From Bacteroidia bacterium (GTDB lineage: Bacteria; Bacteroidota; Bacteroidia; SpSt-205): DNA of 60,459 nucleotides. Positions 5,149 through 60,459 of this stretch are shown here, in pieces. Made by a program: the position numbers and the translations under genes. The DNA lies in the NCBI GenBank assembly GCA_025057135.1, contig JANWXY010000022.1, positions 1 to 60,459 of the forward strand. The letters run 5' to 3'. Numbering within the stretch: the first letter of the stretch is position 1; each line of letters starts with the position of its first letter. A model generated the notes under the pieces. It was not told the DNA's origin, did not search any database, and saw only the letters and a program-made list of their open reading frames with translations.

Positions 5149-8100
5149 ATGCATACTATCATGACTATGAGGCACATAGGGCGTATCTGGCTGCTGGTGA
5201 TGTTAGTGAAATGGGCATGGGGACGTGAAATCATGACCTCAGTAGAACGGCGAATCGCTCCCCGGACAGTAAGCACCTGTACAGCCCCCACTTCCAGCGT
5301 TCAACTAGACATCAATAATGTCAGATGCCTCATTCACAACGGAGGCGACATGTGGTGGGACCTCGTAAGCAGTCCTCGCTATGAAATCCCAAAAGTGCCA
5401 CCGGGAGTCCCCGCTATACATTCTATGTTCGCTAGTGCCGTGTGGGTAGGAGGCTTAGATGCTGCGGGGAGGTTGCGCCTCGCTGCTCAGACCTATCGCC
5501 AAAGCGGGATAGACTTCTTTGCAGGACCTCTGTCCCTGCAGGGTACTACTGATGCTAATACTTGCCAGCAGTGGGATAAGCACTTTGTCATTACCCGACA
5601 GGAAATAGATGCCTTCCGAGCCGCTTTCCAAACAAATCCTAACAATCTCAACCTCGGCGATTATCCGAATGTGGCTAACTGGCCTGCCATCAACCCTGCC
5701 CCGGGCTTTGAACGGACGCTTGCCCCATTTGTGGATCAAAATAATGATGGTGATTACACCCCAGCCGCAGGTGACTATCCAGATGTTTTAGGGGATATGG
5801 CTATTTGGTGGGTTTATAATGACCGAGGCAATGTTCATACCGAAACGGGCGCACCAGCTATTGGACTCGAAGTGCAAGCTCTAGCGTTTGCCTTTTCCAC
5901 CACCGATCAAATCAATGACATGACTTTCTACAAGTACCGCATCATCAATCGCGGTACTCTATCCCTGCGGCAGACTTACATGGCGATTTGGGTAGATGCG
6001 GATTTAGGGTTTTATGCAGATGACTATGTAGGGTGTGATACCTCTCGGGGTTTAGGCTACTGCTATAATGGAGACCCGGTTGACGACCCATCGGGACCGG
6101 GATATGGAGCAAATCCCCCAGCTATCGGAACGGACTTCTTCCAAGGTCCAATATATGACCCTGACCCGGTAAATCCCAAACGCCTCAAAATGACCAACTT
6201 CATGTATTATGAGAATGACTTCAGCGTCCGTGGTAATCCAACAAATGCTATTCACTTTTACAACTATATGCGTTCTATTTGGAAAGATGGATCCCCCCTG
6301 GTAAATAACAATCAAAATGGCTACGGAACAGGTACGCCCACCAACTTCATATACACAGGACATCCCGGTGGGGTACCAGCGGCCACCAGGTGCCCTTTCC
6401 CGACTCCTACTGGCACATGGAACGAAGCTACCGCAGGAAATAGCCCTTTTGATAGGCGCTACCTCCAATCAGCTGGTCCATTTACTCTTGATCCAGGCGC
6501 AGTAAATGACATCATCATTGGCGTTCCATGGGCTCGCGACATCACAGGCAGGTATGGCCCAGGCGGGGATGGAAGAATAGGTTCTGTCTGTTTATTGTAT
6601 CAAGCCGATGATATTGCTCAGGCATTATTTGACAATAACTTCAAGCTTGTCGATGGACCAGACGCCCCAGACTTGGAAATAGTAGAGTTAGATCAAGAGC
6701 TCATCCTTAACTGGCGCTACAAAAATCCTCTGTCCAACAACTACTATGAAAACTACCGCCAGACCGATCCAGTTCTGCGTTCTCTCGGTGTGTCTGACAC
6801 CACATACCGTTTTGAGGGATATTTAGTCTATCAGCTCAGAGATGCCCGGGTATCGGAAACCGACCTTCAAGACCCGACCAGAGCTGCTCTCATCGCCCAG
6901 TGTGATATCAAAAATGGTATAACTACCATCATAAACCGAGAAGAAACGCTCCTACCAGGGCAATCCACTCCGCTAATTGTCGACAAAGTGATGGTAAATG
7001 GTGAAGATAAAGGACTTTTTCATTCCATACGAGTGACAGAAGATAAGTTTGCTGAAGGAACAGACCCGCGTCTCAAAAACTATCAACGGTATTACTTCAT
7101 GATCGTGGCTTATGCTTATAATGGAGAGCCCACTAATAAACGTAAGTTTCTATTAGGACGGAATAACGTACGCCGTTATGAAGCTATACCGCATAAGCCT
7201 GCCTCTCGGGATGGAGGTAGCATACTCGCCAGCCAATATGGAGACGGTATCCCAATTCAACGAGTGTCAGGACTCGGAAATGGTGGAAATCTGCTCAGAT
7301 TATCTCCTGAAACGGAACAGCAACTACTCACTCCTCCTTATCAAGCTGAAAATCCTACCTATTTAGCGGGATTCGGTCCTTTTCGTGTCCGAGTAGTGGA
7401 CCCTCGCCAAGTCAAATCTTACGACTATCGTCTTGTCATCAACTTAGATACCACTATCCGTGAGACCCTAAATGTCGCTGGTAGTGAGCCAACAATCATT
7501 GTAAAGGAGTGGGAACTATACGGGAAGCCCAGCGGTTCTAACGCTGCCGAGCAGCTGATTTATACCTCGTGGAGTGCAATATCCAAGCGACTCTGGGACT
7601 ATAAACTCAACACATGGAATTTCGTTCTCAATCAGCACCTAAACGGTTCAGAGAAAATCATCCCCGGTCATGGCATATCTATATCGGTCAAGCAGGTGAT
7701 TGATCCCGGGATAGAGGATAGGTTCTTCAGCGGTGCGCAGTACCCCTGGTTATGCGGGAGCAGTGCAGATACCATGTTTTACTTTTTACAGGATGAGCGA
7801 AATGGTCTAATAAATGTACAGATAGAGTACTCAGACCCTACTAAGCCATGGCTTTCTTACTTCTCCCCCGAAGACTTTGGCTGGGGTAAAGGTCCAGGGC
7901 TCTCCCCCGGGCAAACTCCAACTTTTGGCGCTTCAAGTGCCTCTGATGCTGTTCAGAGATATTCCAGAGGCTGCCAGCTTACACAGTATCCTGTATCCCT
8001 CCCAGCAGGTGCTACACCTCTTATTCCATTCCGACCTTCGGCCATTCGGCTTCAACCATGGATTTACTACTACGATGGCAATATCAAAGCATTTTATACC

Positions 8101-9345
8101 GACTCCTCAAACAAAGGATGGCTTCCCTTTGGGTTAGTGACTCCTTTCTCTGATAAAGATGCTTCTCAACTCGGATTCGGACTGAACTATTGTCCAGCGA
8201 ACCCGGGGCAGCCTTGCAGTTCCCCTGCACTTTCTAACATCGCTACTCCGCCATGGGAAGGGGTTACTTTGTCTAAGCTTCCGAGCGTCCAAGTGGTGAT
8301 AACACCGGACCGCTCCAAGTGGTCTAAATGTCTGGTGTTAGAAGCCTCCCCCTCTCTCGGTCTAAGTCGTATCGTGGGAGCCGGTAGTCCTCGGGTCGCT
8401 AAATGGCGCCTCAGCCGAGATGTTATTAAGGGCGATACAACTGCTTTCCGAGATGAGCCTTTGTCTGTGTCTTCTCAAGGATTTAGCTGGTTCCCGGGAT
8501 ATGCTATCAACTTAGAAACTGGACAACGAGTGAATATCCTATTTGCCGAAGCGTCATGGTTCCGTGGCGATAATGGAGACGACATGCTCTTCAATCCAAC
8601 CTCCTCTCTCGGCTCCTCCGGAGATGCCTATGGGGGGCGTCACTGGATATTAGTGACCACCTATCCTTATGACGAATGTGCCAAGTTCGCTGAATGGCTC
8701 TGTGTCGCAGATCAACAGCCCACAGGCATAAATACTGTCAACCGTACCTACTTCTTAACCTTCAATAAGCCTGGGGGGAGTAACGTAGTACGCATAGACT
8801 CCTTTTACAAGTACGTAGCGTGGGTATCTCTGCCCCGAGTGGCCGGAAGGCAGTATGAGTTCCGTCACTACAAGGACATTCCGAGCGAGGTGAAGATCAC
8901 CCTTGCGGTGAATAAATCTTACAGACCCGGTCCGAACAATCAGCCCCCTACGTTTAGATTCTCCACTAACGAAATGGCCGCCAGAACTGGAGACCTTGCC
9001 ACCGCTAAAAGCGCGCTGGATATCATACGGATCGTGCCTAATCCATTCTACGGGAAGTCCGGAGTAGGTCGTGGCCGATATGAGATTAGTCAAATAGATA
9101 CCCGGGCCAAAATCACCAACCTCCCTCCACGCTGCACAATACGAATCTTCACATTGAATGGCGTACTCGTTCGCACCTTCCGAAAAGACTCTGAGGAAAC
9201 ATTCATAGAATGGGACCTCAAAAATGAGTTCGGCGTGCCAATTGCCAGCGGGGTTTACATCATACATGTGGATGTTCCCGGTGTCGGACAAAAAGTCATC
9301 AAGTTTTTCGCAATCATGCCACAAGTAGACCTCAATAACTTCTGA
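5149..9345 (+). CDS. Large secreted protein with T9SS-type C-terminal domain
   Basis: This is an exported protein of about 1400 residues with no recognisable enzyme domain. The start is ambiguous: ATGs at 5149, 5161 and 5167 are all in frame, and the last gives a compact signal peptide (MRHIGRIWLLVML...WAWG). The N-terminal third contains ASAVWVGGLDAAGRLRLAAQTYR, a pattern I associate with large T9SS substrates. DQNNDGDYTPAAGDYPD resembles a calcium-binding loop. The last roughly 100 residues (IVPNPF..., IRIFTLNGVLVRTF, ASGVYIIHVDVPG) form a FlgD/T9SS-like beta-sandwich with a short extra tail. It lies 2 bp from both the receptor and the PorV-like gene, so the three are surely co-transcribed and probably act together at the cell surface. 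The function is unknown. Confidence 0.8.
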   Translation: MHTIMTMRHIGRIWLLVMLVKWAWGREIMTSVERRIAPRTVSTCTAPTSSVQLDINNVRCLIHNGGDMWWDLVSSPRYEIPKVPPGVPAIHSMFASAVWVGGLDAAGRLRLAAQTYRQSGIDFFAGPLSLQGTTDANTCQQWDKHFVITRQEIDAFRAAFQTNPNNLNLGDYPNVANWPAINPAPGFERTLAPFVDQNNDGDYTPAAGDYPDVLGDMAIWWVYNDRGNVHTETGAPAIGLEVQALAFAFSTTDQINDMTFYKYRIINRGTLSLRQTYMAIWVDADLGFYADDYVGCDTSRGLGYCYNGDPVDDPSGPGYGANPPAIGTDFFQGPIYDPDPVNPKRLKMTNFMYYENDFSVRGNPTNAIHFYNYMRSIWKDGSPLVNNNQNGYGTGTPTNFIYTGHPGGVPAATRCPFPTPTGTWNEATAGNSPFDRRYLQSAGPFTLDPGAVNDIIIGVPWARDITGRYGPGGDGRIGSVCLLYQADDIAQALFDNNFKLVDGPDAPDLEIVELDQELILNWRYKNPLSNNYYENYRQTDPVLRSLGVSDTTYRFEGYLVYQLRDARVSETDLQDPTRAALIAQCDIKNGITTIINREETLLPGQSTPLIVDKVMVNGEDKGLFHSIRVTEDKFAEGTDPRLKNYQRYYFMIVAYAYNGEPTNKRKFLLGRNNVRRYEAIPHKPASRDGGSILASQYGDGIPIQRVSGLGNGGNLLRLSPETEQQLLTPPYQAENPTYLAGFGPFRVRVVDPRQVKSYDYRLVINLDTTIRETLNVAGSEPTIIVKEWELYGKPSGSNAAEQLIYTSWSAISKRLWDYKLNTWNFVLNQHLNGSEKIIPGHGISISVKQVIDPGIEDRFFSGAQYPWLCGSSADTMFYFLQDERNGLINVQIEYSDPTKPWLSYFSPEDFGWGKGPGLSPGQTPTFGASSASDAVQRYSRGCQLTQYPVSLPAGATPLIPFRPSAIRLQPWIYYYDGNIKAFYTDSSNKGWLPFGLVTPFSDKDASQLGFGLNYCPANPGQPCSSPALSNIATPPWEGVTLSKLPSVQVVITPDRSKWSKCLVLEASPSLGLSRIVGAGSPRVAKWRLSRDVIKGDTTAFRDEPLSVSSQGFSWFPGYAINLETGQRVNILFAEASWFRGDNGDDMLFNPTSSLGSSGDAYGGRHWILVTTYPYDECAKFAEWLCVADQQPTGINTVNRTYFLTFNKPGGSNVVRIDSFYKYVAWVSLPRVAGRQYEFRHYKDIPSEVKITLAVNKSYRPGPNNQPPTFRFSTNEMAARTGDLATAKSALDIIRIVPNPFYGKSGVGRGRYEISQIDTRAKITNLPPRCTIRIFTLNGVLVRTFRKDSEETFIEWDLKNEFGVPIASGVYIIHVDVPGVGQKVIKFFAIMPQVDLNNF

Positions 9346-27171: not shown

Positions 27172-28419
27172 ATGCGCACAATATGGCTAACCTGCATCTT
27201 GAGCAGCATTTTCGCCCAGGGTGCTGTTGGAGATGTTGTGATAATCTCCGAAAGTGGCGAACCTTTTCGCTTATACCTAAATGGGGAATGGTTATCCGAA
27301 GCGCCCGTCACGCGAGTAGAAGCCCATGACGTACCAGAAGGTGCCCAGCGCGCCACCATTTACATTTATCCCAGCGAAGGACGAGTAGTACAGTTCCGAA
27401 CCACACTACATGTAGAGCAGGGCATGATAGAGTACTACGCCATTCGCAAACGAAGAAATCAATACAGAGTCGCTTTATACAATCGTGTGCCCAAGGAAAA
27501 CGTTATCCCCCCTACCCTTCCCCCTTCAACCCCTTCTACACCCACTCCCCCCCCTCCTTCCGCGCAAACCCCTCCCACAGGCGGACAGACCCAAAGTCAA
27601 AATACTACTATCATATTCAATCCCACCATCCAGGTGCAAACAGGCGGCGGAACGCAGGTGAATGCCCCTGCTGGTAGCTCTCTCCCCCCCTCTCCTGCAC
27701 CTACTCCGCATAGCGGAGGAAGCGCTTATACTGGTCCATGTAACTGCACTGTCCCGATGAGCCGAGAAAGTTTCCTTCAAGCTTTGCGCACCTTGCGTCA
27801 GGAGCCATTTGACCAGACGCGTTTAGAACTGGCTAAAAGCATAGCCCGCCAAAACTGCCTACTCTCTCAGGATATACGGGAGATGGTACAAACATTAGAC
27901 TTTGAGGATAATCGGCTTGAACTGGCTAAATATGCTTACGATTTCACGCACGACTTATCAAACTACTTCATGGTGAATGAAGCATTTCAGTTTTCCAGTA
28001 GTAGGGAGGCGCTCTCTCGTTATATTCAGTCGCGTCCAGCTCGTCAGCATTGTCAGCCAGGGGCTTTTCCTGTCAGTCCCATCGGCACTCCGGGCGCGCC
28101 ACCTATTCACCGGCCATGCACGCCGTGTATGAGCGCGACAGACTTCTCCCAAGCCGTAACGACGCTCAATAGAGCAGGCGGAGACCTAAATCGTCTCAGC
28201 ATCGCAAAACAGATTGCCGCCACGAACTGCCTCACTTCAGCGCAAGTGCGAGATATTTGCCAGCTCTTTGGCTCGGAAATCACGCGACTTGACTTTGCTA
28301 AGCATGCCTACCTTCGTACCTGCGACCCGCAGAACTACTTTGTCGTCAATCAAGCATTTAGCTCTGGCACAAGCCAGCAAGAACTCTCCCAGTATATTCA
28401 AAGTCTGAGCGGAAGGTAA
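27172..28419 (+). CDS. Exported protein with two DUF4476 domains
   Basis: This is a 415-residue secreted or periplasmic protein of unknown function. A signal peptide (about 1-20, ending AQGAVG) is followed by a beta-rich N-terminal domain (about 21-105), a long Pro/Thr/Gly-rich linker (110-190), and two helical DUF4476 domains at about 196-286 and 320-411. The domains share the pattern F..A...L......RL..AK.IA..NCL...Q.R, then RLE.AK.AY, then NYF.VN.AF and a final YIQ. Paired Cys residues flank each domain (CNC, CTPC). The family is common in Bacteroidota, and no function is known to me. The gene has its own promoter and is convergent with the barrel gene, 32 bases apart. Confidence 0.82.
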   Translation: MRTIWLTCILSSIFAQGAVGDVVIISESGEPFRLYLNGEWLSEAPVTRVEAHDVPEGAQRATIYIYPSEGRVVQFRTTLHVEQGMIEYYAIRKRRNQYRVALYNRVPKENVIPPTLPPSTPSTPTPPPPSAQTPPTGGQTQSQNTTIIFNPTIQVQTGGGTQVNAPAGSSLPPSPAPTPHSGGSAYTGPCNCTVPMSRESFLQALRTLRQEPFDQTRLELAKSIARQNCLLSQDIREMVQTLDFEDNRLELAKYAYDFTHDLSNYFMVNEAFQFSSSREALSRYIQSRPARQHCQPGAFPVSPIGTPGAPPIHRPCTPCMSATDFSQAVTTLNRAGGDLNRLSIAKQIAATNCLTSAQVRDICQLFGSEITRLDFAKHAYLRTCDPQNYFVVNQAFSSGTSQQELSQYIQSLSGR

Positions 28420-28451
28420 GCCTCAAACTACCTACGACGGCGTAAATACCT

Positions 28452-30914
28452 TTACCAACCCTCTTCGTCTCCTTGAGAAGCGCCACGGCGCCTCCAGAAG
28501 TTTTCACGCACCTTGGCTTGTTGGTATCTTATCTGTATTCCAAAAAGCCTAAATGGAATCCCCGTCTCATTTTCTTGAATGAATCCTACCCCCCTCAACT
28601 GCGTGTGCAAGCGTAGGTATTGATAGAAAGGATTATAGACTATGGCTCCGAGAGACCAGCGTCCGCCACGAAAGTTTTTTCTAACTCCCAACTCTTGAAA
28701 CATGAAAACAGGACGAGTCCCTTGAAGAGTGACACGGGCTGAGTTATAGTTGCCTGAAAGTTCAGCAATCCATGTAGGAGCAGGGCGCCACTGAATGGAA
28801 CCGCGTAAAGAGTACTGCCAGCCTTGATTGCGGAGGCTAAGTTCATCTAGATTGGCTCGTATATCTACACGCTCTACTTCTACGCTACCCTGAATAGAGA
28901 GTTTATCCGAGAAAAAACTCCGCCTAATAAAAGCATTCGCGCCCAAAAGACTGCGCTCACCAGCATTGACAAAAGTAGTATTCGTAATCCCCGACGCATC
29001 TACAAAAGTATATTCCTGGACCGCATCTCTGGTCTGACGAGCGTATAGGGTAATAAATGGGAAAAAGCCCAGTTCCAGAGAATGGGTAATCTCGGGACCG
29101 AGATTAGGCTCCCCATACTGGATATTGCGCGGGTCGGAAGCATCTACGAAGGGATTCAGCTCTTGAATCCATGGACGACGAATCCGCTGGCTGTAACTAA
29201 TCTGGAGAGGGAAAAGCCCCTTGATGCTGTAGCTGAGTAGAAGGTTAGGGAAAAGATTATAGTAGGACTGATAGAATGGCAAAGTGCCACGCAGGAAAAG
29301 CGCCGTATTGTAGGTGTATTCATAGCGGACTCCACCTTTGATAAGCCAGCGAGCTTTGCTCCAACCTAAAGAAAGGTAAGCCGCAGGAATCCACTGTGTG
29401 TAAGTTAGCGTATCCTGCCTCTGCGGTAGGAGTTCAAAAATGCCTTCGGGACGATTATACCGCTCATAGGCAAAGCCGGTACCCAAACCGCGCATATTGA
29501 GACGCAAGCCAGTTTCCAGCTTCCATCGTTCAGCGAAGGGACGAGTGTAATCTGCCTGAAACTGCCCCTCCCATGAGGGACCAGAGTTTCTACTTCTTTC
29601 TCTCAGAAAAAAGGTATCCACCCCAGCAAGCTGGTCTAAGGTGTAACGCTGCTGACGCCGTCCGTAGCCTCCCTGGATAGATAGGAATACCTCTTCTCCT
29701 GGACGCTCAGCCGAGCGATAAGTGAAGTCTAAGTTAGCATTTCCACCGATATCTCTGGAAGGAAATCGGGCTTGGCGTAAATAGCTGATACCATCAAAAG
29801 CTCCCCCTGCCCAACTTACTGTTAGATCATTTGTGCGAAGGAAAGTCATATCGCGCAGATTTACTCCCCAGCTCCAGGTGTAGAGTGCATTTCGCGCATA
29901 CTCCCCACCATAAAAGATATTCGTAGAGAAGCGCCTGGGCAAAAACTCCCCTTCCTGCTTCAGAATAACCGGTCCGAGGGAAGTTTCCTGCTCCCGATAA
30001 AATCGCGTATATCCTGTGCCCGCATATCGGTAGCGTCCCCCTACATTGATAGTATGAGACCAACGAGCCACTTTGGCTCCGATGGTAAGACTCCCATTGG
30101 CGAACTGATTAGATATACCCGCATTTCCTGAGATGGAGAGACCTTCCAGACGATTTCTTTTGAGAACGATATTCAAAATCACCGCCCCTTCGGCTTCATA
30201 CCGAGCTGAAGGATTAGTGATCAGTTCAATCCGCTCTATTTGATCCGCAGGTACAGCTCGGAGAGCATCACTCGGACTATTGGCAAAAAGAAGTGAAGGT
30301 TTGCCATCCAAATAAATGCGTACAGCTCCACTGCCCCGAACTTCTATACGCCCCTCCATATCTACATTCACAGCTGGTAGCTTGCGAAGTACATCCAGAG
30401 CATCTCCCCCTTGGAGCGTAGGGTCTTTATCAGGAGAATAGACGATTTTCTCGGGCTGATATTCAATCGCTCCGCGCTCAGATTGAATCTCAACCGTCTG
30501 CAGCTCCACCCCGACCTCTGAAATATAAAGGGTACCTAAATTTCGGTCCGGTCTGAGAGGGGTGGTTTCTACTATCCTATCCGTCGGCTTGTATCCTAAG
30601 GGATGTATCCGCAGTCTATACTTGCCTATAGGGACATCTGAGAGGGTAAAGTTTCCTTTTTCATCCGAGAGAACGCCTGCGATAAGCCTATCGCCTCGGT
30701 ATAGGCTGACGGATACATACGGCAAAGGTTCATGCGTAACGCTATCTCGGAGAGAGCCCCGGATCGTACCTCTAAGCGCAGCCTCAGAACGAGGGAATTC
30801 GCTAAAGTTTCGTCGGCCCTCCTCCCCTCTACCTTCTGGGCGAAAACCTCCGGGAGAGGGAGGCTGACTCCATGCAATCCCCACTGCCACTACCAAGATT
30901 CGCCACATCAGCAT
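28452..30914 (-). CDS. Outer-membrane beta-barrel receptor-like protein
   Basis: The 820-residue protein starts with a signal peptide (LMWRILVVAVGIAWSQ) and a Pro/Arg/Gly-rich stretch. A carboxypeptidase-regulatory-like domain follows (about 50-135; GSLRDSVTHEPLPYVSVSLY, SDEKGNFTLSDV). A TonB-plug-like domain comes next (VLRKLPAVNVDMEGRIEVRG; YLDGKPSLL; IERIELITNPSARYEAEG), and then a barrel of the outer-membrane protein beta-barrel type. NPSARYEAEG in place of the usual SAxYG(S/T) plug ending is typical of this branch, whose members may be surface proteins rather than true importers. The C-terminal tail (REN FWRRRGASQGDEEGW) runs on past the last strand. Start candidates are ATG 30914 and 30908. 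Confidence 0.85.
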   Translation of the reverse strand: MLMWRILVVAVGIAWSQPPSPGGFRPEGRGEEGRRNFSEFPRSEAALRGTIRGSLRDSVTHEPLPYVSVSLYRGDRLIAGVLSDEKGNFTLSDVPIGKYRLRIHPLGYKPTDRIVETTPLRPDRNLGTLYISEVGVELQTVEIQSERGAIEYQPEKIVYSPDKDPTLQGGDALDVLRKLPAVNVDMEGRIEVRGSGAVRIYLDGKPSLLFANSPSDALRAVPADQIERIELITNPSARYEAEGAVILNIVLKRNRLEGLSISGNAGISNQFANGSLTIGAKVARWSHTINVGGRYRYAGTGYTRFYREQETSLGPVILKQEGEFLPRRFSTNIFYGGEYARNALYTWSWGVNLRDMTFLRTNDLTVSWAGGAFDGISYLRQARFPSRDIGGNANLDFTYRSAERPGEEVFLSIQGGYGRRQQRYTLDQLAGVDTFFLRERSRNSGPSWEGQFQADYTRPFAERWKLETGLRLNMRGLGTGFAYERYNRPEGIFELLPQRQDTLTYTQWIPAAYLSLGWSKARWLIKGGVRYEYTYNTALFLRGTLPFYQSYYNLFPNLLLSYSIKGLFPLQISYSQRIRRPWIQELNPFVDASDPRNIQYGEPNLGPEITHSLELGFFPFITLYARQTRDAVQEYTFVDASGITNTTFVNAGERSLLGANAFIRRSFFSDKLSIQGSVEVERVDIRANLDELSLRNQGWQYSLRGSIQWRPAPTWIAELSGNYNSARVTLQGTRPVFMFQELGVRKNFRGGRWSLGAIVYNPFYQYLRLHTQLRGVGFIQENETGIPFRLFGIQIRYQQAKVRENFWRRRGASQGDEEGW

Positions 30915-53601: not shown

Positions 53602-56600
53602 CTACGGGACGAGCTTAAGGAGCTTCATGGAAGTCTCCTCCCCATTTTTGACAAACTGGAGAGTATAAACCCCAGTTGCCCAGTGCCGAACATCTACCCG
53701 AACTTCATGAAATCCTGTGGGATAGACCTGAGGCGTGATGTATGAAACCAACGCGCCCTTCGCATCGTATATCCGAACCCCGACATACTTTTCGTCAAAC
53801 AGACTAAACTGAACCGTGAGAAGCTCGGAGACTGGATTCGGAAATGCTCTGATAAATTCCTGAACAACTGGATTCTCTGATGAGAACTTGACCTCTGCGA
53901 CATTACTATACACAATCTGTCCTCCCTGGTGCTCGCTCATTACACGATACAGATTGGCTGCCTCAAAGCTCGGGAAGCTGTCCAACCATGTGAAGCTCGT
54001 GGCGCCTTGGACATCATGTCTATAGATGGATACCCACCCCGTATCTACCCGTTTTTGAAGAACCGCATACTGGATGGGGACATTCGTTTGCCAGAAAAGA
54101 CGGGCATGAGCTTCAGGGGTTGGGTAAGCCGCTAACACGCTCTGAATAGCAGGTAGCGGTGAGCAGTTAATAACATTGACGCTTTGCTGGACCGTATCGG
54201 GACAAGCACCGGGCGCGCTCACGACCATGGTGATGGTCTTCGTACCTGGTGTGCTCCAAGTGCAGGATTGGGAGCTACCCGAGTTCCAAGTTGTACCATT
54301 ATCGCAGCTCCACTGGACATTTCCGCCAATCACAGGTGAGCTGGAATAGACCTGAAACTCGCCAAATGTGGGGGCATTTGCTGCCTGCACATCAAACTCT
54401 AAACGCCACAGCTGCGCAAAGATAACTTGAGTCTCTGTAAAGACACCGCTGTCGTATACATAGGTACTCGGTGCGAAGGAGAAAGTTTTAGCCAGCTTCC
54501 ATCCGGAGCCGTCATTGTAGTACAGACGAGCGCGTCGGGGAATGCGCTGAGATGCATTTACACAGGTCTGACACGCCCAAAATACGACTCTATTTACGCT
54601 GCGTGGAATAGGATAGCGCCACATAGCCCACTGAGTACCAGCGCCAGTATTATTTGCGGTCCATGCCGTGCCGTTTTGATACACCCCATCCCCAAGCTGG
54701 GCGAAGTTGGCTGTTTGAACCGAAGAGAAGGTGAGCTGGGTCATATTAGGAACCGACCCATGCGTACCGAAGCTGCTGATGAGAGTTCCAAAGCTGGGTT
54801 GGCTGGGACCAGATATTAGGGTTTGATTGGTGAAAGTGACAGGCTGCCCCGTACAATACGGGATGGGACTGATAGAAAACTGACCATTCAAGTGGGGCAG
54901 GGCAATAGCCGCTACTGGTACTCTCTCTGAGGCGCAGGAGTTCTCTACCCAATACACCTGCGACTGGGAGAGAGGGGAAATGACAAGCGTAGGTGTATTG
55001 GAAGCAATAGGAGTACCACCAGAGGAAGAGGTATACCAGTTAGAAGGAAGTCCCGCTTGGAGTGTCAAGGAGCTACCAGCACATACGGCGGTATCTTTTT
55101 CCTGAGCCAAAAAGTTAGTCGTATAAGCTGTCGCAGCTCCATCATACGGTCCGCCAACAATAGGAAGAGGACATCCACCGAGAAGTACTCGCGTCGCAGA
55201 CCCATCATATGGCCCCCCTGCGTAGCTAAGAGTAGGACAGCTCGCTAACAATACCCCACTCGCTGAACCATCATATGGACCTCCCGCATATGGCAGTTCA
55301 GGAGGAGGACAATTTATAATAGAAGCAACGGCGGAACCATCATAAGGCCCTCCAGTGTACTGCGTGATTGGCCAACATATAGCACCCACAAACGCCGTAG
55401 CAGAACCATCATACGGACCGCCGGCATAGCTAAGCGTAGGGCACGCAGCTACAACTACCATGGTTGCAGCCCCATCATAAGGCCCACCATTCACTGGAAA
55501 AGGACAATCACCACCAACAAATGCCGTAGCAGACCCATCATACGGCCCACCGGCATAGCTAAACGTAGGACATGCAGCCACAACTACCATCGTCGCAGCC
55601 CCATCATAAGGCCCACCTTCCACCGGCAAAGGACAAGCACCACCAACAAATGCCGTAGCAGACCCATCATACGGACCTCCAGTGTAACTCAGAGTGGGAC
55701 AACTCGCCACCAATACTTGAGTCGCTGAGCCATCATATGGACCGCCAGCCCTTGCGGGCCACACCACATCAAACTCTATACAGAATGTAGAGTCACACAG
55801 AGTGCCATTGACGACGGTAATACATACACGCTTTCGTCCGGGTATAGTATAACTCACAGGCGGAGGGGTGGCGCCTATGTAGTCTAACTGGGAAGCTCCA
55901 CATCCAGCAGTACCATTTGCGCAGAAGTTCCAGTAAATATTTGCCCCGGTTCCATTTACAGTGTCGGTATAGGTAGGAGTAAAGGTGATCGGCACACCGA
56001 GCGGGACAGGGGAAGTAGGACTCATAGCCACACTTACCCCAGGTGTAGGATAGATAATCAAATAGCGGCAGGCTGTATCTGATTGTGTGCCGTTACTCAC
56101 ACCTAAGCACACGAGGTATGTATCTGGCACCGCATACATGTGCTGAGGTTGGAAATGGGTAGAGGTATTCCCATCGCCAAAGAGCCAGTAGTATTGTACG
56201 CCCGGTCCGACTGAGGAGTAGTTTAGAAACTGGGTAGGCTGCCCAAAACAAGAGCCAACATAGTCAAAGTTCGCTCTTGGCTTTCCAGGATCTGGGGGAA
56301 TACAGGTCTGCAGAATAGGATTCGCTGTTACATTTACGGTGATATCCCCCGTCGCCCACTCTGGCATTACGATCTGTACCCAGAAACTCTTGAATGGCGG
56401 ACGGCATTTTAAGTGTAGCGTTACATATGTACCTTCGGCGACGCACTCCTCCTGATTCATCGTACTGCAGTCTCCCGTAAGTACCCGATATAGAACCTGA
56501 CTACCCAGAGCCGTAGTGTTTTCTATAATCTGCACATCAAAATCCATTGTGTCAGGCGTGAGGTTATTTACTAACACCCACGCAGACTTCTTACCCACTG

Positions 56601-59600
56601 GGGTGCCAAAGCATGCCATGATAGTGTCGGCTTCTCCAGCTCCCTCTCCAATAGTAAAGCAATTGATAAACAGATTGGCTGAATAAGGACCACCTGCAGC
56701 AGCCACAGGTATCATCACAGAGTCTTGACAAAAGTCCCCTGGATGTCTCTGGAGCCATATGCGAGGGATTACCAGCCCCAAATGATTACATCCTGTGAAC
56801 ATAATGTAGTACCGTCCCGGCCGAATACATCCTCGACCCCAGTAGCGGTAACCCAAGCTAGGATGGGTTTGCCACATGCCCGTCAGCGGGACCCGAACTA
56901 ACCCTGTGGACGAAGAGTCCCCAGGTACAGCTTGGTAGTAAAGCTGAATATCGTCAGGATTGTAGTTATACTGACTGACGCCAGGGCGGTCATAGTTTAG
57001 GAAGATGTAGCCAGTGATGGCTGACTCAAACGCGTACCAGATAGTATGATTCCCACAGGTATTCTGGTCCGTCGGGTCCTTGGTCGCACAGGCGAGATCG
57101 CCCTGACAGCCTGTGTAAGTACCTGATGTTAGAGGGAGCCAGGTATACGGAGCATCACACTGAGAAGTAGGATTTCCAGTGATTACGTTTGCTTGTGAGT
57201 AATGGTTATACTGAACAGACCAGCCGGGCAGAGGTTCATATCTAACCTCCACCTGGATTTGAAGATTAGGTTCTTTGCCACATGTATTACGCTCCACAAC
57301 TACGTAATACCTCGTAGGCGGCGGGGGGTTGCACACATCTCGTATGAATGACACTGCATTAGATTGAGAACAGCACCACCAGCCCTGAGAGCTTGTGACA
57401 AAAGAGAGGCCTTGCGCTATCGTGGAATCCACCGAACCAGGAAACGCCGAAGGGGGATCATTACTGCTATACACGGCAAAAGCTGGCTGAGCACCGCCAC
57501 TAGTCAAGTTGGTCACTCGGACGTGTACTCTTCCACTTCCCGCCACTACAAACGTAAACCAGAGATTTCGTCTTCTATCCACAGGTAGTACAGCAGGAGG
57601 AGCACTAGACGGGGTGGTGTTATCCACCGTACCTATGGGGCAGTTAGCTGCCGGATCACTACTGAAGGCATCCGTTGTACAAAATATAAAGTCTGTACTT
57701 GCAGGACGACCATAAGGACCGAGAGGATCAAGTGGATTACCGGCATACCACTGATCATTCAGAGGTATAGTACCAAAGTCATAGGCATTTCGTGCATAGT
57801 TGGAGCGGGAAAATCCCACAGAGTCCACATAAATCGTTGGAGTGTAAGTCCAACCGATACAGCCATCTCCTGCGAAGGTCACAAGAGTATAAGTACCAGG
57901 AGGCACCCAGCATATGTGCCCCGTACCCGTGAAACAATCGTGAATGATAGTATAAGGGGGCGTAATAGCAGTAATATCCCCTTGATACAAACGGGAAGAG
58001 CTATAACAGCCACTCTGATGGATAATGAGATAGCTTGGACGAGTGACAGAAAACACTCTATAGCTCACTCTATTCTGCCCCCCACCGCACGGGGTGATTC
58101 CTGCAGGAAAAGGCAGGTTATTAGCACAGCTCCAAAACTCCCAGTCCAGCGTATAGCTACGATGTTGATTGGGGGCATAGACATAATCTGGAACCCAGTC
58201 TAAATTTCCAGGGCGGTCAGCCGTAGTAAAAGTTCCAAACTTCTGCACCCTCGGGTCCCGTGAGATAGTAAACCAGATACGGTTGCCTATGGCTCCACCT
58301 CTCCCACTTGTGTAGGTAGGGTTACTGTAAGTGCCTCCGACCGCATACACTACGAAGGTATACCAGCCTGGCTGCATACATGCCGTATATCCTCCGTGGC
58401 AGTCCATGAAAAGAGAGGTAAGGGTATTATCACTTATTCTTCCGCGGAAAGTGCGCCAGCCTGTAACCCCAAGTTCGGGCCAGGCAACGTAGGCATATTG
58501 AGGAGAAAAAGTCACCAAGCTCGGCTCCGCGATATATACTTCCCAGTAAAACTGCTTCGTAGCTCCGCCACAAGGCGCATAGCCTAATATGGTCAAAGGA
58601 TTATTGTGACAGGTAACTCGGGTCCACGTCGCGGTCAAAGAGTGGGTAGTACCTCCTATGGTACCCACCTCTTCAACATTTGGACGAGGGTCAGGACTTC
58701 CGGGTAGACTTACAGGGGCGGTTGGCGTGTAAAATCGCCGCTCTCCGGGGGGGAATACATGAAAGCGAAACCATGGACGGTCTCTTTCTCCGATATCTGA
58801 ATTGTCTCCAAAGCTAACCAGTGTATAATAACCTGGGGTGACGCAAACCTTGACTGGATAATAAAGGTCTTGACAGCCCACTTGGTCAATCAAGTTCTGA
58901 ATATATCCTCCCACTATGGGTTCTATGCGAGCATCACCCCTGTAAAGCCTATATTGAAACCGCCACCAGTTCCCCCCGCCTATCTCTAAAATTCCTTCTT
59001 GGTCTATTCTGATAATCCGATAAATAGCACGATTATTTCCAGCACCACAAACGCTTCCCGCCGGTAAAACTGTGGTCCTACAATCCAAGGTATCCCAGGT
59101 AGCGTAATAAGTTACTCCGGGGGTCAGAGGGGCGCCATTATTGATAGAGTCAGCCTCCTGCGGGCGATTATGTAAGCCAAAAAGCTGCTGGGGAGTGGAA
59201 CCGAGCTGTACGCGAAAGTTAACAGGTAGTCCCAGAGCAGTATAAGGAGCCCAACATGTCCGCCATAAAGCTGAACGATTAATCCGAGCAAGCACCTGTA
59301 CAGTATAAGTCCCTGCTGTCAAGCAGTTTATCCAGCCATCATTATCAACTGTGGCGCGCAGAGTGAGATTACACCCATTTACGGCAGGTGTGCCCTCAAA
59401 TATCCTAAAACGCACCGTACCCATGCAGTACCACCACCACCACGGATGGGAATACCAGAAGCGCACATGCGCCGCACCAGTCAGTGTGAAAGTATAATAT
59501 AGAGCCAAATCAAAATCTCCTATGGTATCATCAGGAGTCACTGCGCTACCGAAGGCGCTGCAGGGATTATTGGCAATACGACTTTGGCATCCCCAGAAAT

Positions 59601-60459
59601 CGCTTACCGTATAGGTGGGACCAAAAGATAGAGTCCCTAACTGATGTGTGGTTGGAATGCTCAAAGGATTATAAGAAATAGCCGGCTGGCTACCTCGCTC
59701 ATACAGACGCAGCCGAACTCTATTAGAGTAACTGGTTCTACCTAAGATTTTGATAGAGTAGTAGGTATTCGGCTGGAGCTGGCACAATATATCATAACGG
59801 GCACTCGTACTGCTATTATTCTGAACCATAGGGATGCAGCCCTGGATGAGCGTCAAGCCAGATGCAGAATCGGTCAGCGCATTACCCTGATAAATGAAAA
59901 GGCGCCACTCTCTTGGGGAGGGATTGGAGCTATTCCATGGGTCTTCCATGAACTCTATGCCCACCCAATCCACATGGGCATCAGTTCTGAACACATGCCA
60001 AGTGGACTTACTCCAGCTTGAGTCATTATCGCAAATGGCCTCGCCCTGGCTTACAGATTGACAGGCATAATCGAAAGTAACATCTTTCCGTAGAACTGCA
60101 CTGGAAGAGGTATTGAGCACTCCAAGATTTTGCGCCGTAGCCATATGATCGTACTCTGCCTCAGCGCCTGCGCTGATGGAAGGGGCAGAAACAATCAGCT
60201 CCAAGAATATCTCACCACTCGCTGCGAGGTTGGCTCCCACCTGGACCATATACCATCCCCTTTGAAGGCAAGCATGAGTATAACCCTCCATGAGGACTAT
60301 CGGAGGGTCTACCCGCTGCGCTGCGCCTGGCAGACAGGTAGTGCCCCGATATAAAGTCCATCCTGCATGTGTAGGGTCAATAGAAATTCCCACCTGACGG
60401 AGGATTATTCGCACAGTGCGAGTAGTTGGAAGGTAGAAGCGATACCAGACAGACTTACC
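53602..60459 (-). CDS. Giant T9SS-secreted multidomain protein (5' end outside the window)
   Basis: This is a secreted or surface protein with 2285 residues visible; the frame stays open to the right edge, so the start lies beyond it. Residues about 1-1300 are repeated beta-sandwich modules of roughly 150 residues, each with paired Cys and a closing strand such as LTAGTYTVQVLARI or VPPGTYTLVTFAGD, resembling pre-peptidase C-terminal (PPC-like) domains. A PKD domain (about 1390-1480; YYWLFGDGNTST) follows. Ten GGPYDG repeats occupy about 1570-1777, then comes an Ig-like domain (WYTSSSGGTPIASNTPTLVI), a discoidin-like domain (about 1880-2040) and a T9SS type A sorting domain (AFPNPVSELLTVQF; WATGVYTLQFVKNG). 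It is likely an adhesin or surface fibre. No catalytic domain is visible. Confidence 0.87.
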   Translation of the reverse strand, partial: GKSVWYRFYLPTTRTVRIILRQVGISIDPTHAGWTLYRGTTCLPGAAQRVDPPIVLMEGYTHACLQRGWYMVQVGANLAASGEIFLELIVSAPSISAGAEAEYDHMATAQNLGVLNTSSSAVLRKDVTFDYACQSVSQGEAICDNDSSWSKSTWHVFRTDAHVDWVGIEFMEDPWNSSNPSPREWRLFIYQGNALTDSASGLTLIQGCIPMVQNNSSTSARYDILCQLQPNTYYSIKILGRTSYSNRVRLRLYERGSQPAISYNPLSIPTTHQLGTLSFGPTYTVSDFWGCQSRIANNPCSAFGSAVTPDDTIGDFDLALYYTFTLTGAAHVRFWYSHPWWWWYCMGTVRFRIFEGTPAVNGCNLTLRATVDNDGWINCLTAGTYTVQVLARINRSALWRTCWAPYTALGLPVNFRVQLGSTPQQLFGLHNRPQEADSINNGAPLTPGVTYYATWDTLDCRTTVLPAGSVCGAGNNRAIYRIIRIDQEGILEIGGGNWWRFQYRLYRGDARIEPIVGGYIQNLIDQVGCQDLYYPVKVCVTPGYYTLVSFGDNSDIGERDRPWFRFHVFPPGERRFYTPTAPVSLPGSPDPRPNVEEVGTIGGTTHSLTATWTRVTCHNNPLTILGYAPCGGATKQFYWEVYIAEPSLVTFSPQYAYVAWPELGVTGWRTFRGRISDNTLTSLFMDCHGGYTACMQPGWYTFVVYAVGGTYSNPTYTSGRGGAIGNRIWFTISRDPRVQKFGTFTTADRPGNLDWVPDYVYAPNQHRSYTLDWEFWSCANNLPFPAGITPCGGGQNRVSYRVFSVTRPSYLIIHQSGCYSSSRLYQGDITAITPPYTIIHDCFTGTGHICWVPPGTYTLVTFAGDGCIGWTYTPTIYVDSVGFSRSNYARNAYDFGTIPLNDQWYAGNPLDPLGPYGRPASTDFIFCTTDAFSSDPAANCPIGTVDNTTPSSAPPAVLPVDRRRNLWFTFVVAGSGRVHVRVTNLTSGGAQPAFAVYSSNDPPSAFPGSVDSTIAQGLSFVTSSQGWWCCSQSNAVSFIRDVCNPPPPTRYYVVVERNTCGKEPNLQIQVEVRYEPLPGWSVQYNHYSQANVITGNPTSQCDAPYTWLPLTSGTYTGCQGDLACATKDPTDQNTCGNHTIWYAFESAITGYIFLNYDRPGVSQYNYNPDDIQLYYQAVPGDSSSTGLVRVPLTGMWQTHPSLGYRYWGRGCIRPGRYYIMFTGCNHLGLVIPRIWLQRHPGDFCQDSVMIPVAAAGGPYSANLFINCFTIGEGAGEADTIMACFGTPVGKKSAWVLVNNLTPDTMDFDVQIIENTTALGSQVLYRVLTGDCSTMNQEECVAEGTYVTLHLKCRPPFKSFWVQIVMPEWATGDITVNVTANPILQTCIPPDPGKPRANFDYVGSCFGQPTQFLNYSSVGPGVQYYWLFGDGNTSTHFQPQHMYAVPDTYLVCLGVSNGTQSDTACRYLIIYPTPGVSVAMSPTSPVPLGVPITFTPTYTDTVNGTGANIYWNFCANGTAGCGASQLDYIGATPPPVSYTIPGRKRVCITVVNGTLCDSTFCIEFDVVWPARAGGPYDGSATQVLVASCPTLSYTGGPYDGSATAFVGGACPLPVEGGPYDGAATMVVVAACPTFSYAGGPYDGSATAFVGGDCPFPVNGGPYDGAATMVVVAACPTLSYAGGPYDGSATAFVGAICWPITQYTGGPYDGSAVASIINCPPPELPYAGGPYDGSASGVLLASCPTLSYAGGPYDGSATRVLLGGCPLPIVGGPYDGAATAYTTNFLAQEKDTAVCAGSSLTLQAGLPSNWYTSSSGGTPIASNTPTLVISPLSQSQVYWVENSCASERVPVAAIALPHLNGQFSISPIPYCTGQPVTFTNQTLISGPSQPSFGTLISSFGTHGSVPNMTQLTFSSVQTANFAQLGDGVYQNGTAWTANNTGAGTQWAMWRYPIPRSVNRVVFWACQTCVNASQRIPRRARLYYNDGSGWKLAKTFSFAPSTYVYDSGVFTETQVIFAQLWRLEFDVQAANAPTFGEFQVYSSSPVIGGNVQWSCDNGTTWNSGSSQSCTWSTPGTKTITMVVSAPGACPDTVQQSVNVINCSPLPAIQSVLAAYPTPEAHARLFWQTNVPIQYAVLQKRVDTGWVSIYRHDVQGATSFTWLDSFPSFEAANLYRVMSEHQGGQIVYSNVAEVKFSSENPVVQEFIRAFPNPVSELLTVQFSLFDEKYVGVRIYDAKGALVSYITPQVYPTGFHEVRVDVRHWATGVYTLQFVKNGEETSMKLLKLVP
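55130..55752 (-). repeat. Ten tandem GGPYDG-encoding repeats
   Basis: The DNA on the plus strand repeats CCATCATAnGGnCCnCC at 55139, 55202, 55268, 55337, 55406, 55472, 55535, 55601, 55664 and 55730, a spacing of 63, 66 or 69 bases. Each encodes GGPYDG(S/A)A followed by a hydrophobic stretch with a Cys-Pro. Spacing is always a multiple of three, and synonymous third bases vary, which shows the peptide is under selection. Confidence 0.9.
55406..55663 (-). repeat. Near-identical 129-base tandem duplication within the array
   Basis: Bases 55406-55534 and 55535-55663 are two copies of a 129-base unit, each holding two GGPYDG motifs (SATAFVGG-type and AATMVVVAACPT-type), with few differences. This points to recent duplication inside the older array. 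Confidence 0.75.

Follow-up and report, generated by a model that had tools for sequence, protein, structure and literature searches.

A GGPYDG repeat array of varying length with one cysteine per unit in a giant predicted T9SS substrate of Bacteroidia

Results

The window analyzed here is a stretch of 60,459 bases from the genome of a Bacteroidia bacterium (contig JANWXY010000022.1), and its minus strand carries at 53602-60459 an open reading frame of at least 2285 amino acids. The frame is still open at position 60459, so the N terminus lies beyond the edge of the contig and window; complete-looking ORFs of orthologs are mostly 2322-2536 aa long, with one of 3194 aa. The protein contains a PKD domain (56071-56244, minus strand, residues 1406-1463; Pfam PF00801, E 2.2e-11), an Ig_7 domain of the CHU_C-associated type (54895-55098, minus strand, residues 1788-1855; PF19081, E 9.5e-9) and a T9SS type A C-terminal sorting domain (53620-53844, minus strand, residues 2206-2280; PF18962, E 4.2e-9, and TIGR04183). 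The repeat array that is the subject of this study is located between PKD and Ig_7, and Ig_7 directly follows its last unit.

The sorting tail scored above the cut-offs of both models (26.8 bits against 23 for TIGR04183, 37 bits against 27 for PF18962). Additionally, SprA is present at full length in the genome (2222 bits, model positions 5-2318), alongside 47 sorting-tail matches, which makes T9SS export of the giant protein, as claimed in an earlier note on this DNA, a well-supported prediction. Attachment to the cell surface is an expectation that we infer from this. Nine of the protein's 71 cysteines (in 2285 residues) fall within the array. The N-terminal part of the protein in the window (56300-60459, minus strand, about 1300 residues) is Cys-rich, looks on inspection as though it contains repeated units, and matched no Pfam family. 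Orthologs show a weak galactose-binding-like match at their start and weak F5/8C-like and galactose-binding-like matches elsewhere in the sequence. A separate 1398-aa protein is encoded on the plus strand of the window at 5149-9345, directly downstream of a TonB-receptor-like gene; it has a T9SS sorting-tail match at 9115-9300 and no Pfam match at 1e-5.

The array itself spans 55138-55746 on the minus strand (residues 1572-1774). We found ten exact GGPYDG motifs, each followed by SA or AA, at intervals of 22, 21, 22, 21, 22, 23, 23, 22 and 21 residues, which agrees with the ten in-frame copies at 63-69 bases that had been noted previously. The motif occurred in none of 2000 shuffles of the giant protein. 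Nine units contain exactly one Cys, spaced at 22, 21, 22, 21, 22, 22, 24 and 22 residues, and the tenth contains none. Variation within the motif is entirely synonymous over all unit pairs (pN = 0, pS = 0.62), also as described earlier. The invariant TATGAT codons of the array could be ruled out as a DNA signal, with TAC and GAC both present in orthologs.

A 129-base double unit is present as proposed, in the form of units 2+3 (55552-55680) and units 4+5 (55423-55551), both on the minus strand and 90% identical. The two copies differ at 13 of 129 bases, eight of these differences being synonymous, and their pS of 0.23 indicates that the duplication was not very recent, contrary to the original description. 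Units 6 and 7 (55285-55422, minus strand) form a pair, ..GAICWPITQYT GGPYDG ..NCPPPELPYA, that matches the corresponding pair of other species and is referred to below as the core pair.

The Asp-Gly pairs had also suggested calcium binding, which for this array would mean a roll of the RTX type. The two share Gly-rich turns bearing Asp, and units of three relatives (L049-L051) carry 3.5-4.2 acidic residues each. Window units, however, have only 1.3, RTX repeats (HemolysinCabind) need nine-residue GGxGxDxUx units rather than the 21-23 residues found here, and no RTX model in Pfam matched at E<1. Calcium binding is thus unsupported for the window protein, and we regard an RTX-like roll as most improbable.

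Matches to the array were found in 10 of 100 related genomes searched. The order PKD, array, Ig_7, sorting tail is kept in orthologs from the same genus and from more distant families of the class, and ortholog records bearing names are Bacteroidia or Bacteroidetes MAGs. Ortholog arrays occupy the same location between PKD and Ig_7 and contain 10-18 units (14, 10, 18, 10, 18, 10, 12, 11, 14, 16 and 10 in L041-L051, the 18 of L045 being reached after allowing two single-base shifts), compared with ten in the window. Copy number is therefore not fixed between species. One-base frameshifts lie inside the repeat arrays of L045 (7901-8200) and L052 (8961-9160). Phase variation is an unlikely reading, since each shift is a single base, both MAGs belong to one series and sequence errors are the probable cause. 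The giant protein has a paralog in the MAG of L045 (L053:3093-9878), with an array of only five GGPYDG units, of the GGPYDGASLTYISCRP type.

More distant arrays place the repeat in a wider group. The genome of the window encodes a second GGxYDG protein, a paralog of 688 aa (G000 contig 22, about 28320-30390; L031:3323-5386) that consists mostly of such units. About 17 of them directly follow an apparent signal peptide, and downstream come what looks like an FN3-like part and then a sorting tail. Its units are spaced at 25 residues and read K-aromatic-x-GG; L038 and L052 share this build, and the repeats of L038 align to those of the window at E 6.1e-17. When a profile of the window array was run against 396 sampled genomes of the phylum, one genome besides the window's own passed E 1e-5, with an array of the GGxGDG type (G267, E 1.8e-10), and other searches yielded further Cys-free arrays such as GGYSDGSAS. 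The Bacteroidota GGxxDG/GGxGDG proteins L056, L063 and L065 share with the window array a tandem aromatic-x-GG-x-x-DG every 21-30 residues and have neither the regular Cys nor the Pro-Tyr. Their arrays directly follow an apparent signal peptide, as do those of the Cys-bearing L031 and L038, whereas the array of the giant protein is internal; the C-terminal end of L056 reads like a T9SS tail. Kinship with GGxxDG-type repeats, which the earlier note had mentioned for other T9SS substrates, is thus borne out, and by its sequence the Pro-Tyr-Cys form is one version of a wider GGxxDG repeat with a sparse distribution. We found no curated family for these repeats.

Across 16 sequences, at least one Cys was present in 183 of 183 units and exactly one in 182, at a location that shifts by a few residues within the unit. 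An aromatic residue stands two positions before the GG in 157 of the 183. The exactness of the one-Cys rule makes cross-linking of the array through these residues more plausible, and we consider it plausible on this sequence pattern. Cys-free GGxxDG relatives exist, so the residue appears dispensable for the repeat as such. Additionally, most arrays have an odd number of cysteines because the last unit lacks one, and some Cys therefore cannot pair inside the array. Selection is the most likely reason that both motif and Cys have been kept.

The arrays are also organized in twos. Spacers are more similar at a lag of two units than at a lag of one in 8 of 12 arrays; the pattern is absent from the other four. 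Non-core units found their best match within their own array in 93.3 of 114 cases, compared with 8% expected, which is read from the sequences as the mark of concerted evolution. In contrast, the core pair almost always finds its best match in the core of another species (..CWPITxYT / ..CPPPxxPYA, with ..CxDTMxSxWS in distant relatives). Counting units on the N- and C-terminal sides of the core gave 6+4, 6+8, 4+6, 8+10, 4+6, 8+10, 4+6, 6+6, 6+8, 7+9 and 4+6, that is, even numbers on both flanks in nearly all species, with the 7+9 array as the exception; given related sequences and counts that are not independent, we assign no probability to them. The core was not recognizable in the 11 units of L048.

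A conserved pair between flanks that turn over could mean that the array is a ligand-binding module, with the core pair as the site for a glycan, a metal or the surface of another cell and the flanks as a variable shell. The weak F5/8C-like and galactose-binding-like matches in orthologs would fit glycan-facing proteins. However, no binding-domain family matches the repeat, and the motif is retained in every unit, well beyond the core. We consider binding unlikely, though with a real chance of being correct.

The profile search that had been recommended recovered relatives and no curated family. None of the sequence families in Pfam, NCBIfam or the PDB covers the GGPYDG repeat, leaving no known domain there that would account for the array, and we found nothing in the literature on the motif. 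Matches of single relatives to DUF7244 and PsbU were rejected, as no single stretch passes and the members disagree. The best PDB sequence match was a designed protein with kelch-blade-like aligned repeats (E 8e-5); it was not accepted as a family identity, its E-value being summed from individually weak stretches.

We ran AlphaFold twice, on five and on ten units. Repeats slipped register in the MAFFT alignments, so only in-register rows were kept. Confidence was low (pLDDT 60.6 and 60.5; pTM 0.55 and 0.53), and within a run the five models disagree with each other. Both models place one main strand of 7-11 residues in each unit, starting at or just past the DG. Structure prediction of several units, a check proposed in advance, thus delivered a strand per unit and no confident fold. 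Foldseek searches with these models returned nothing significant (best E 0.27, TM up to about 0.36), and the top of the lists was mostly taken up by beta-solenoids and beta-helices, with the names CsgA, ice-binding proteins, GlmU and LpxD. CsgA headed one of the lists, at a non-significant E of 0.29. On these models a beta-solenoid is the favoured but unproven fold of the array.

Low model confidence and a composition rich in Gly, Pro and Ala would also be expected of a flexible, mostly disordered linker without a fixed fold. Such a linker would not readily explain a motif and Cys strictly conserved across several bacterial families, the conserved core pair or the strand predicted in each unit, and we judge it quite unlikely. 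A curli-like fibre, in which cross-beta stacking joins molecules outside the cell and cysteines cross-link neighbours, would draw on the single Cys per unit and on the unit length of 22-23 residues, as in CsgA. The array resembles CsgA and other beta-solenoids in having about 22 residues per unit and in its top Foldseek names. It differs in showing no sequence match (none to the curli repeat in Pfam), in structural matches that are not significant (E 0.29 for curli) and in being one segment of a multidomain protein that exceeds 2285 aa and carries a sorting tail, so that an inter-molecular fibre has only a slim chance of being right.

The two-unit periodicity and the mostly even counts could instead reflect a beta-propeller in which two units (43-44 residues) form one blade, and the kelch-like designed protein, for all the weakness of its individual stretches, points the same way. 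Orthologs would then have 5 to 9 blades, which would be unusual, and the 11-unit and 7+9-unit arrays violate the rule. The families shown at E<1 for 28 members did not include kelch or PQQ, and we noticed no propeller among the Foldseek matches listed. A propeller is therefore very unlikely.

Discussion

The explanation that we prefer, tentatively and with confidence that falls somewhat short of calling it probable, is that the array is a T9SS-exported, Cys-bearing beta spacer in which recombination of two-unit blocks causes the length to drift. The array would be the spacer segment of the giant protein between its PKD and Ig-type domains. Each unit of 21-23 residues would be a small beta element, a GGPYDG turn plus one strand ending near the Cys, and the units would stack into an elongated, solenoid-like rod. 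Disulfides may engage the single Cys of each unit, and the simplest arrangement would join the two units of a pair. The central fixed pair would anchor the array, and the flanks would gain and lose mostly two-unit blocks through recombination between similar copies. Rod length would thereby come to differ between species while selection retained the motif.

A length-drifting spacer is the most likely function, and by analogy it can be compared with the stalks of Periscope Proteins (SasG, Rib, Sgo_0707 and CdrA; PMC8201768). Those elongated stalks, which project an adhesive domain, mostly consist of globular domains in tandem; the repeats share very high identity at the DNA level and differ between strains. 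Both involve a large bacterial surface-type protein with tandem repeats of varying number, and in both similar DNA repeats permit recombination. In contrast to the Periscope stalks, the unit here is about 22 residues, most units are moderate in DNA identity, with one pair of two-unit blocks reaching 90%, and the variation is known between species only.

Disulfides are known to be important for the machineries of gliding and of T9SS in Bacteroidota (PMC12635249), which indicates that the chemistry is available and not that the array uses it. A more specific form of the spacer model, which we hold to be possible and on balance unlikely, is a disulfide-laddered beta rod with one Cys per coil, coils paired, a fixed core pair and flanks growing by whole pairs. 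If true, T9SS-exported proteins would have in it a spacer of adjustable length that is locked by covalent bonds. The strict rule of one Cys per unit makes the idea of a disulfide-built extracellular spacer directly testable. With this array, a repeat family that had not been catalogued joins those of the T9SS-exported proteins in Bacteroidota. The array also offers a clear natural case of array evolution, in which a core pair is conserved, the flanks homogenise and change comes mostly by pairs.
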